This document shows positions 319-35,639 of a DNA stretch of 41,318 bases, in pieces; positions within the stretch are counted from its first letter, which is position 1; each line of letters starts with the position of its first letter. The translations under genes were made by a program, and so were the position numbers. The notes beneath the pieces are model-generated. The model made no database searches and was not told the DNA's origin. It saw only the letters and a program-made list of their open reading frames with translations. This DNA comes from a bacterium (GTDB taxonomy: Bacteria > JAHJDO01), in NCBI GenBank assembly GCA_030611945.1, contig JAUWOV010000005.1:1-41318 (forward strand), read 5' to 3'.

Positions 319-322
319 AGAA

Positions 323-354
323 AGGCACAAAGCGGCAAAGGCACACAGGCACAA
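323..354. repeat. Four degenerate octamers AGGCACAA/AGCGGCAA/AGGCACAC/AGGCACAA
   Basis: Direct reading; same unit and length as 35374..35405. Confidence 0.85.
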
Positions 355-372
355 AGAACTAAAAATATAAAT

Positions 373-13689: not shown

Positions 13690-14843
13690 TTACCCGTCTG
13701 ATTCTGGGTGGGGCGCAGGAAAACACTTTGTACACAGTAGAAGGATTGATGAAGGATTCCGCCTATGATGTTACACTAGTTTCAGGTCCTACCACAGGTC
13801 CAGAAGGAAGTCTCGTGAGCAAGGCAAAGGGATTTGGAGTAAATTTAGTAATTATTAAGAGCTTGACAAGGAATATAAATCCTTTTAGTGATATCTCAGC
13901 TTTTTTATCTCTGTATAAACTAATAAAGAAAAATGATTTTGATATAGTGCATACGCATTCCTCAAAAGCAGGCATCATTGGAAGACTTGCAGCAAAGCTG
14001 GCGGGATGCAGTGTAATTATACATACAATACATGGTCTGCCGTTTCATCCGTATCAGAACAGGTTTCTAAACTTTTTTTATATTCGTCTTGAGAGATTAG
14101 CCGGGAAATTCACAGATAAGATAATTACAGTCTGTGATAGTATGGCTCAGAAAGCGCAGGTTGCAGGCATAAAACCTGTTCATGGATATGTAACGGTTTA
14201 TAGTGGTATGGATTTAGGTAAGTTTATAGAGGAGAGAACAAGTTCCCATCAAGCAAAAAGAAACATCGGAGTACCTGCTGACGCTAAGGTTGTAGGTAAA
14301 GTAGCAAGGCTTTTCCCTTTAAAGGGCTATGAATATTTTATCAGCGCAGCGAAATATATTTCGGAATCTGTACAGAATGTATATTTTTTGATTGTGGGAG
14401 ATGGAATTTTAAGAAAACAATTAGAAGAGATGGTTAGGCAAATGGGATTAAAAGATAGATTTATTTTTGCAGGGCTTGTTCCGCAGGAAGATGTGCCGAA
14501 GTTTATTGCTGCAATGGATATAGTTGTGCATACTTCATTACGAGAAGGATTAGCAAGAGTCATACCCCAGGCAATGGCAATGTCCAAGCCTGTAGTGAGC
14601 TTTGATATTGATGGAGCGAGGGAACTGGTACATAACAACGACACAGGTTATCTTGTTATGCCTAAAGATACTAAGGGACTATCAGATAGAGTAATAGATT
14701 TACTAAATAATACAGAAAAAGCAGAGAAAATGGGCTTAAACGGCAAAAATCTTGTGGACCCGGCATTTCGCATAGAAACAATGATTGATAAAATAAAAGA
14801 AATATATGATAATCTATTGACAAGCTCAAAGGGAAATTTCTAA
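13662..14843 (+). CDS. GT4 family glycosyltransferase
   Basis: VLHIITRLILGGAQENTLYTVEGL, VHTHSSKAGIIGRLAAKLAG, HTSLREGLARVIPQAMAMSKPVV. Confidence 0.92.
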   Translation: MEKIKVLHIITRLILGGAQENTLYTVEGLMKDSAYDVTLVSGPTTGPEGSLVSKAKGFGVNLVIIKSLTRNINPFSDISAFLSLYKLIKKNDFDIVHTHSSKAGIIGRLAAKLAGCSVIIHTIHGLPFHPYQNRFLNFFYIRLERLAGKFTDKIITVCDSMAQKAQVAGIKPVHGYVTVYSGMDLGKFIEERTSSHQAKRNIGVPADAKVVGKVARLFPLKGYEYFISAAKYISESVQNVYFLIVGDGILRKQLEEMVRQMGLKDRFIFAGLVPQEDVPKFIAAMDIVVHTSLREGLARVIPQAMAMSKPVVSFDIDGARELVHNNDTGYLVMPKDTKGLSDRVIDLLNNTEKAEKMGLNGKNLVDPAFRIETMIDKIKEIYDNLLTSSKGNF

Positions 14844-14928
14844 TTTTGAATTTTAAATTATTAATCAAGTTTTAATGCTTTAATTTTTAATTATAAAAGG
14901 CGCAAAGAAAAAAAATAATTAGAAATTT
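14834..14928. repeat. Inverted repeat with AT-rich interior
   Basis: AAATTTCTAATT (14834..14845) and AATTAGAAATTT (14917..14928), a perfect 12-bp complementary pair. Confidence 0.5.
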
Positions 14929-14954
14929 TGAAATTAAAAATTAAGGATTAGTAT

Positions 14955-17225: not shown

Positions 17226-17549
17226 ATGGATGCATTAAGAAAAGCGCAGGTCTTTTATAAAAATGAATTGGCAGGGTATATTGTCGAGACTCAAAACGGT
17301 TATATTCTCCAGTATGATCATAAATTTTTAAAGAAAAATATTCCAATTTCAATGTCTTTGCCTCCCAGAGAAGAATCTTATTATTCAAAAGAATTATTCC
17401 CTTTCTTTAAAGGGCTTCTTCCTGAAGGGTGGTATTTAAATATCGTTAGCGCGACGCAAAAGGTGGACAGTAAGGATTCTTTTGGTTTATTATTGGCAAG
17501 CGCCAGCGGTGATACCATTGGCGCGGTTACTGTGATAAAAGATGTTTAA
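17226..17549 (+). CDS. hipS: HipS-like protein (HipA N-terminal subdomain as a separate protein)
   Basis: KAQVFYKNELAGYIVETQNGYILQYD...IPISMSLPPREESYYSKELFPFFKGLLPEGW; GAVTVI end. Confidence 0.83.
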   Translation: MDALRKAQVFYKNELAGYIVETQNGYILQYDHKFLKKNIPISMSLPPREESYYSKELFPFFKGLLPEGWYLNIVSATQKVDSKDSFGLLLASASGDTIGAVTVIKDV

Positions 17550-18399
17550 TTCTTCTAAATGGCCGGTCATAGATTTTAATTTAGGAGATATATTCCTGAA
17601 GGCGCAGAAACTGACCGGTAAACTTTCTATTTCAGGAGTTCAGCCTAAGCTGTCTGTTAAGCTGGATAAGAAACAAAATTTGTTAATTCCTGTGGCTGAA
17701 GGAGGGGAGTATATTTTAAAACCACAAATCTCCACTTTCCCAAATATCCCGGAAAACGAACAATGTTGTATGGATATCGCCGAACAATTATATATAGATG
17801 TTCCGTTTCATTGCCTAATTCCTTTAAAAGATAAGAGCCTTGCCTATGTGGTCAAAAGATTTGACAGGGAAAAAGGGGTAAAAATTCACCAGGAAGATTT
17901 TGCGCAAATCCTTGAACAAACAGATAAATATAAGGGATCGGCAGAACAAATGGGCAGAAGGTTGGAAGAAATATCTTCGGCTCCTGGTTATGATACGCAA
18001 TTGCTTTTTGAACGGGTTGTTCTTAACTTTATTCTCGGCAATGGCGATGCCCACTTAAAAAATTATTCCATTTCTTACAGAGACAAAAATAATATTCGCT
18101 TAACACCAGCTTATGATATTGTGTGTTCAAAACTGGTTCTTCCTGATGAGGAAGATTCAGCAATAACTATTAATGGAAAAAAGAATAAATTGCAGCGAGA
18201 GGATTTCAATGAGTTGGCTGAATATTTAAACATTCCTATAAAAGTTCGGTACGAAAAATTTGAAAAGAAGTTTGATGTTATGAGAAAAATCATAGAAACT
18301 TCCAGTATTGACAAGGAAAAGCAACAACAATTTCTCGAAATAATAAAGGAAAGAATGGGTCGTTTAAAATTAAAAAGGGAGGCGGCAAATGACAGTTGA
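17542..18399 (+). CDS. hipT: HipT-like Ser/Thr kinase toxin (HipA core lacking the N-terminal subdomain)
   Basis: KLSISGVQPKLSVKL, VVKRFDREKGVKIHQEDFAQIL, GNGDAHLKNYS, PAYDIVCSKL. Confidence 0.87.
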   Translation: MFNSSKWPVIDFNLGDIFLKAQKLTGKLSISGVQPKLSVKLDKKQNLLIPVAEGGEYILKPQISTFPNIPENEQCCMDIAEQLYIDVPFHCLIPLKDKSLAYVVKRFDREKGVKIHQEDFAQILEQTDKYKGSAEQMGRRLEEISSAPGYDTQLLFERVVLNFILGNGDAHLKNYSISYRDKNNIRLTPAYDIVCSKLVLPDEEDSAITINGKKNKLQREDFNELAEYLNIPIKVRYEKFEKKFDVMRKIIETSSIDKEKQQQFLEIIKERMGRLKLKREAANDS

Positions 18400-24777: not shown

Positions 24778-25047
24778 ATGTTAAGAAAGTTAGGTCAAAA
24801 CTATCAGGTTGCTTTGCCTAGAGAGGTGGTAAAAATGCTGCATCTTCATATCAATGATTACCTTGACATTGATGTAAAGGACAATAAGATTTCTATTATT
24901 CCACAGATTGTAATTCCAAAGGATCAGGCGTATTTTTACACTCAGGAGTGGCAGAAGGACGAAAAAGAAGCTCATAATAATATCAAAAAAGGACGTGTTA
25001 CCAAAACGAAGGACATCAAACAGCTTCTTAAAGAGCTTGATCGCTGA
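24778..25047 (+). CDS. AbrB/MazE-family antitoxin
   Basis: MLRKLGQNYQVALPREVVKMLHLHINDYLDIDVKDNKISI swapped-hairpin pattern, C-terminal FYTQEWQKDEKEAHNNIKKGRV. Confidence 0.82.
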   Translation: MLRKLGQNYQVALPREVVKMLHLHINDYLDIDVKDNKISIIPQIVIPKDQAYFYTQEWQKDEKEAHNNIKKGRVTKTKDIKQLLKELDR

Positions 25048-25304
25048 TGCATATAGAGGCGACCGAGACTTTTATCAGGCTATATAAGAATCTGCCCGAA
25101 GAAGTCAAGCGGAGAACAAAAAAAGCGCTTGGGTTTCTTGAATCAAACCCAACGCATCCGTCATTAGGTCACAAGAAAATGGCAGGGCAGGAAGATATAT
25201 TTGAAGTCAGAATTTCAAAAAACTACCGTCTTACTTATCGGAGAATAGACAATACCGCCTATTTACGCAAGATTGGCACTCATAACCTTCTGCGTAATCC
25301 GTAA
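25047..25304 (+). CDS. RelE/ParE-superfamily toxin
   Basis: FIRLYKNLPEEVKRRTKKALGFLESNPTHPSLGHKKMAGQEDIFEVRISKNYRLTYRR. Confidence 0.85.
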   Translation: MHIEATETFIRLYKNLPEEVKRRTKKALGFLESNPTHPSLGHKKMAGQEDIFEVRISKNYRLTYRRIDNTAYLRKIGTHNLLRNP

Positions 25305-34255: not shown

Positions 34256-35639
34256 GGTCTATAATACACTTACAGGCAAAAAAGAGGAGTTTCTATCCCT
34301 AGTTTCGGGCAAGGTCAGGATGTATAATTGTGGTCCTACAGTCTATGACTATTTTCATGTTGGAAATGCAAGGAATTTTATTGTATTTGACGTAATAAGG
34401 AGATATCTCAAACATAAGGGGTATAAAGTTACATTTGTTCAGAATATTACAGACATTGACGATAAGATTATAAACAGGGCAAATAAAGAGAAGGTCTCTG
34501 CTGAGAGTATAGCTAATAAGTATACGGACGCTTTTTTTGGGGATTTAGAAATTCTCGGCATTGTAAAGCCTGATATATGCCCAAAGGCAACTGAACATGT
34601 TTCGGATATTATTTCTTTGATTAAAAGACTTATGGATGCAGGTTTTGCCTATCAAGTTGATGGAGATGTGTTTTTTGAAGTAGGCAAATTTTCTGATTAT
34701 GGCAAATTATCAAAACGTTTGTTTGACGAGGTAAAGCAGTGCGCAAGAGTGAAGATAGACGAGCGCAAGAAGTCTCCTCGCGATTTTGCTCTGTGGAAAA
34801 GCGCTAAACCTGATGAACCAAGCTGGGACAGTCCATGGGGCATGGGCAGACCGGGATGGCATATTGAATGTTCTGCTATGAGCATGAAATATCTTGGAGA
34901 AACGTTTGATATACATTCCGGAGGGCAGGATCTGATCTTTCCTCATCATGAAAACGAAATAGCTCAAAGCGAAGCGGCAACAGACAAGCCATTTGTTAAG
35001 TACTGGTTTCACAATGGATTTTTAAATATTGATGGTGAAAAGATGTCTAAATCTCTGGGTAACTTCTTTTTAGTGAGAGACATACTTAAAAAGTTTAGCC
35101 CTCAAGTTGTGCGGTATTTTATGATATCTGCTCATTACCGTAGCTCGCTTGATTTTAGCGACAAAAGTCTCGCTGAATCAGGGAAAGCTTTTGAGAGAAT
35201 AGAAAATTGTTTTGACAACATCAGTGAAAATGTAAAAGATTTAGATGCGTCTCAAAAAAATATACATACAGAATGGACGAACAAGTTTGAGGAAGCTATG
35301 GACGATGATTTTAATACAGCATCTGCTCTGGGAGTTGTGTTTGATCTAATAACAGAAATTAATAGCTTGATACAGGCACAGAGGCACAGAGGCACAGAGG
35401 CACAAATAAAAGAATACATTTCCGATCTGAAAACATTTTGTTCTATACTCGGGATTCTGCCAAGTATAGAGGATAAGGAATTGGATAAAGATTTACTGGA
35501 TTTAATTGAAGAACGAACAAAAGCTCGCACTAAGAAGAATTGGCAGGAAGCAGACAGAATCCGGAGTCTGCTGGAAGAGAGAGGCGTTGTTCTCAAAGAC
35601 AATCCGGACGGAACAACCAATTGGAAGAGAAAAGGCTAA
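34248..35639 (+). CDS. cysS: Cysteinyl-tRNA synthetase
   Basis: [78 protein letters not shown]. Confidence 0.97.
35374..35405. repeat. Four tandem octamers AGGCACAG x3 + AGGCACAA inside cysS
   Basis: Direct reading; translates within ...[18 protein letters not shown]... Confidence 0.9.

Follow-up and report, generated by a model that had tools for sequence, protein, structure and literature searches.

What is the short octamer array that separates a glnN-like gene from nadE near the start of the window (the whole 41,318-nt stretch of DNA analyzed here): an ordinary tandem repeat, or part of something larger? A sequence-only reading had described four octamers at 323-354, a counterpart of the same length within cysS and a single related unit near 14897, and had taken them for a dispersed short tandem repeat rather than a chance occurrence. 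On rereading, the sequence and coordinates of the 32-nt array at 323-354 proved correct, as did those of the four-unit array within cysS, and we annotate the two as follows:

323..356, plus strand: L-type element, four octamers AGGCACAA-AGCGGCAA-AGGCACAC-AGGCACAA plus AG
35374..35405, plus strand: R-type array in cysS, a perfect four-unit array of three AGGCACAG units and one AGGCACAA

The arrays and their dispersed copies

The L-type element is flanked by the glnN-like gene (end 318) and nadE (start 373) and begins 4 bp past the glnN stop, at a junction outside the 23S or 16S rRNA genes. It is a solo, single arm with neither terminal inverted repeats nor an S23p/PF05635 ORF, and its predicted fold displays no hairpin (z +0.3); the single arm and the missing hairpin speak against the explanation favored below. 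Tandem Repeats Finder assigned it a low score, at period 16 only, and Rfam models matched only one tRNA in the window. Matches to AGGCACANAGGCACA with at most 3 mismatches number 6 in the window versus a mean of 1.9 in shuffled sequence, with 6 reached in 1 of 100 shuffles. We rejected a CRISPR assignment, as the octamers are contiguous and devoid of unique spacers, and likewise the view of unit 2 (AGCGGCAA) as a decayed unit, once an AGTGRCAA consensus emerged among the L copies: most feature AGTGRCAA or AGTTACAA at this position. The cysS array is indeed like the one at 323 in length and octamer period, but the two belong to different sub-types (R and L, respectively). It lies in frame, spans 11 residues of the translation, has another length in genome G002 and is absent from G001 and G004. 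The local cysS sequence is replaced by the array rather than cleanly interrupted, which counts against the explanation favored below.

A pattern search of the whole assembly (1.66 Mb), with the reversed pattern as control, recovered 43 exact matches to the two-unit pattern AGGCACANAGGCACA and 10 to the three-unit pattern, versus 0 for either reversed control. There are about 30 dispersed copies, most of which fall into two forms upon side-by-side comparison: L, with the layout AGGCACAA-AGYGRCAA-AGGCACAN-AGGCACAA-AG, of which the window copy is typical, and R, with three or four AGGCACAG-like units, to which the cysS copy belongs. The copies occur solo, as hairpin pairs or, in a single case, around a PF05635 gene. 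Close pairs of L and inverted R are found on contigs C82 and C40 and at two places on C31, and a less regular one at C19; the predicted hairpins of the C82 and C40 pairs are very stable (z -8.6 and -7.5), and those of the C19 and C31a pairs fold less strongly (z about -2.6). As judged with a simple ORF caller, every one of the 14 intergenic copies for which an upstream neighbor could be called is in the sense orientation relative to it, and 10 of the 14 start 3-9 bp past its stop codon. Of the 27 copies tested, about half lie within an open frame, although some of these frames are surely not genes. Thus, the earlier call of dispersal rather than chance holds, as the outcome named as its refutation, a lack of other copies and of enrichment, did not occur, but "tandem repeat" captures only the surface, since the arrays are arms with fixed sub-types that lie in sense after stops, form inverted pairs and once enclose a PF05635 gene.

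A change in unit number between relatives, for which that reading had proposed a check, is seen in cysS and at the C21 site (about 6 units in this genome, 3 in G002 and G003) and is secondary to dispersal. Such variation at shared sites is what ordinary minisatellites would display, if each array had slipped in place and the shared unit reflected composition or chance. We hold this to be highly improbable, because about 30 unrelated sites share one unit and the L layout, with 0 matches to the control, relatives have clean empty sites, and the copies form inverted pairs and keep a sense orientation.

Other repeats accompany the octamers. Three times (L157, L171; G000:C37 near 482, 11840 and 14792), AGGCACA units enclose a double-hairpin cassette, CGTCCAGAGGACGACCAGCCTYTGGCTGG. 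A second dispersed repeat, AAAGTCCCCCTTTGAAGGGGGAT..., found in many places in all five genomes (G000-G004), directly borders the octamers on C40, C73 and C103 (e.g., L158:4546-4583). The L-type pattern is also present on five viral contigs (L394-L398).

Occupied and empty sites in relatives

319..362, plus strand: inserted stretch (approximate), 44 bp versus relatives, from by-eye alignment with L177, L178, L179 and L180
C31:27034-27484: gene-bearing element between polA and coaE, with L and inverted R arms bracketing a PF05635 gene

The glnN-nadE junction of the window is about 44 bp longer than uninterrupted junctions: in the sister genomes G001, G003 and G004 the glnN-like stop and nadE start overlap or lie no more than about 9 bp apart, and the diverged copy of this locus that the assembly carries on C115 is likewise without the insert. 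The TAA found at both 316-318 and 360-362 may be a 3-bp target duplication, the flanks elsewhere being too diverged to compare. The second glnN-nadE and coaE copies, about 82-83% identical, lie at contig ends (G000:C115:1-730, L180; G000:C33:8-569, L290), which suggests that the bin is mixed with a related strain.

The polA-coaE junction of G001, G003 and G004 is without the gene-bearing element, and at two C40 sites one or other of G004 and G003 has nothing comparable. Both C40 sites hold, in G001, an element with another repeat, TTAATCC-like in sequence, and a third kind is present in G003 at one of them; by these alignments, therefore, elements that differ in repeat sequence occupy shared junctions. 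The flanks of the G003 PF05635 gene resemble, by eye, the dispersed repeat of G003 itself. For the TTAATCC-type element of G001 no matching IVP (the PF05635 product, see below) was found, which counts against the favored explanation. In two species, one and the same junction following a similar gene end contains IVP elements whose proteins and repeats differ (L362, G001:C11; L363, G003:C36).

PF05635 genes and their flanking repeats

14834..14946, plus strand: inverted arms of an IVP element without the gene, A+T-rich, recognized by its flank match to G002:C37

Apart from the C31 gene (148.8 bits), no PF05635 gene (encoding the 23S rRNA intervening-sequence protein, IVP) was found in the assembly. 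The product of the C31 gene, a four-helix-bundle protein related to the solved structures 2gsc and 2rld, exceeds the cut-offs of TIGR02436 and NF008911; the arms of the element pair in the predicted RNA fold, and this copy too lies outside rRNA genes. The window carries a second, A+T-rich flavor: the related AGGCGCAAAG reported near 14897 is present (14898-14907) but belongs to this other element, in which 14834-14893 agrees with the 5′ flank of the G002:C37 PF05635 gene at 58 of 60 positions, the match stops where that gene begins, and AGGCGCAAAG occupies the place of the absent gene. Elsewhere in the window, a HipA-like pair of frames after a short helix-turn-helix frame (17226-18399) and an AbrB/RelE-like pair (24778-25304), both recognized by eye in the translations, are likely toxin-antitoxin genes.

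We compared IVP genes in two samples, one of 50 genomes picked for four-unit AGGCACAN arrays and one of 185 genomes of a single class drawn irrespective of arrays. PF05635 is present in 43/50 of the former and over cut-off in 35/185 of the latter, a contrast that is only suggestive because the two sets differ in taxonomy. The flanks are a stronger test: for the 89 IVP genes of the first sample, the median inverted-repeat score is 21, versus 9 for swapped flanks (control: 116 small ORFs from array-bearing contigs, median 10), with 64 genes above the 95% point of the control and 42 above its 99% point. Among the 28 usable loci of the second sample, 23 and 10, respectively, exceed these points, so that inverted flanks lie beyond the control 95% point in 87/117 IVP genes of the pooled samples. 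The strongest flank periods are 7, 8 and 14 bp in the first sample and 7 and 14 bp in the second. A count of co-direction at IVP loci (57/94 on both sides) was discarded because the length-based choice of ORFs misplaced known neighbors such as coaE.

The repeats differ among elements of one genome (G005 alone has several) and are inherited together with the protein: the repeat is shared in 56% of pairs with IVP proteins more than 60% identical and almost never below 45%, and repeat sequence tracks the IVP protein across phyla (Mantel, 0/500 permutations). One pair in this comparison, L266-L231, was set aside as an artefact of masked N runs. The 13 AGGCACA-type IVP proteins (12 genomes) all belong to a single group of 18 rows with weak support, and this label requires 3 changes on the IVP tree versus 12.5 for shuffled labels. 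By record titles, array-bearing contigs span many phyla. NPL-UPA2 Unc8 (G011) has arrays and no PF05635 match, which counts against the favored explanation. The phage collection yielded no IVP, and the matches on plasmids are all below 60% identity. In the second sample, 6 of 29 IVP elements lie just before tRNA-Gln (L323, L326, L328, L329, L330, L333), and two elements (L334 and L267) lie between tRNA genes; tRNA-Gln and tRNA neighborhoods are possible recurrent target sites.

These data bear on two further explanations. The arrays could be MITE-like or REP-like elements moved by an unrelated transposase, with IVP as a passenger that landed between the arms: the hairpin pairs with short spacers resemble MITEs, only one of about 30 copies contains the gene, and IVP has no known transposase activity. 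To our knowledge, no catalytic activity is known for IVP, nor a mobilizing enzyme for the elements, which also counts against the explanation favored here. Nevertheless, a passenger is rather unlikely, given that in unrelated phyla most IVP genes are flanked by inverted arms of their own and that the repeat tracks IVP phylogeny. Alternatively, the arrays could be a selected host RNA or DNA signal (for processing, termination or translation coupling among the genes of an operon) with IVP as its binding protein, as might be read from sense copies just past stops between co-directional genes, purine-rich 5′ arms and strong predicted hairpins. This we consider improbable, since sites are empty in close relatives, the repeat varies between elements inside one genome, one copy lies in frame in cysS, and the same gene family is recognized as parasitic in rRNA (PMC4990558).

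A similar architecture, with another core gene and 9-10-bp units, is displayed by GxxExxY (PF13366) genes of the same genomes (27 loci, gene starts set by domain match). Their flanks are inverted (median score 20 versus 10 for shuffles) and contain ACCACGAAG-, CACAGAGG- and CGCCAAGA-like units (L364-L393), with 9-10-bp periods over threshold in 8 of 54 flanks.

A predicted mobile element and its known relatives

Rather than an ordinary microsatellite, the array at 323-354 is most likely a gene-less derivative of an element resembling the intervening sequences (IVSs) of rRNA; from sequence comparison, it is probably one arm of such an IVS-like mobile element residing outside rRNA. We favor this reading because of the excess of matches over the control (43 versus 0), the L/R layout, the inverted pairs and the sole PF05635 gene between arms; the empty sites at glnN-nadE, polA-coaE and C40, the hairpins and the uniform sense orientation (14/14); the inverted, periodic IVP flanks in two independent samples and the co-inheritance of protein and repeat; and the gene-less second flavor in the window and the resemblance to the Coxiella IVS. 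The full element would comprise a 5′ tandem array, a PF05635 four-helix-bundle gene (IVP/S23p) and an inverted 3′ array. As for how such elements would move, IVP may bind the repeat of its own element, in RNA or DNA form, and mobilize elements that carry it, acting in trans on gene-less copies. Host RNase III would cut the transcribed hairpin, as in rRNA IVSs, and thereby make insertion between co-transcribed genes tolerable, and the solo arms and hairpins would be deletion derivatives.

More tentatively, we entertain a broader scheme, in which widespread single-gene elements insert in sense after stops, perhaps via an RNA step, with a core protein that reads its own 7-8-bp repeat as an address, the two diverging together. 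There might be at least two core families (IVP with 7-8-bp and GxxExxY/PDDEXK_3 with 9-10-bp units), and many of the odd repeats dispersed in the genomes of environmental bacteria could be gene-less copies of these. In a mainly open-access literature, where absence is weak evidence, we found no description of the octamers, their translated peptides or dispersed octanucleotide repeats; the IVP literature examined yielded no account of such repeats, nor did we find IVP and GxxExxY treated together, the GxxExxY literature examined being unrelated. One way to explain the short dispersed tandem repeats of many phyla is by IVP elements, which are also a possible source of odd peptides (e.g., RHRGTEAQ) within conserved proteins. 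A family outside rRNA also offers testable substrates: the protein, the repeat predicted to be its cognate and, as controls, many non-cognate repeats.

IVP is homologous to Avd of diversity-generating retroelements (PMC10053308). Its match to the Avd model NF033474 (E = 3.6e-7; 30 bits) is far under the 80-bit cut-off, and no template/variable repeat pair or reverse transcriptase was seen at the element. With MITEs and REP/BIME sequences, the copies share being short, dispersed, non-coding, often hairpin-forming and apparently moved in trans, and the paired ones have MITE-like terminal inverted repeats. Unlike in those, tandem arrays of 7-8-bp units make up the ends, many copies consist of one arm and form no hairpin, no transposase or RAYT is known to be linked, and the gene-bearing relative encodes PF05635. 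Rickettsia palindromic elements are short and dispersed and can sit in frame within protein genes, as the array does in cysS, whereas here there are tandem octamers, no long palindrome, and most examined copies follow stops. The closest parallel is the Coxiella burnetii 23S rRNA IVS, which combines an S23p gene with inverted repeats at its termini, is cut by RNase III in the stem and has, before the ORF, tandem GACAGAT heptamers of strain-variable number; the same source describes the origin and function of rRNA IVSs and of the S23 protein as unclear (PMC4990558). The PF05635 family, stem-forming terminal inverted repeats and tandem heptamers are common to both; by contrast, the present elements lie between protein or tRNA genes and extend IVP beyond rRNA, with repeat ends that differ from element to element, sites that are empty in relatives and many copies, most of those here, without a gene.
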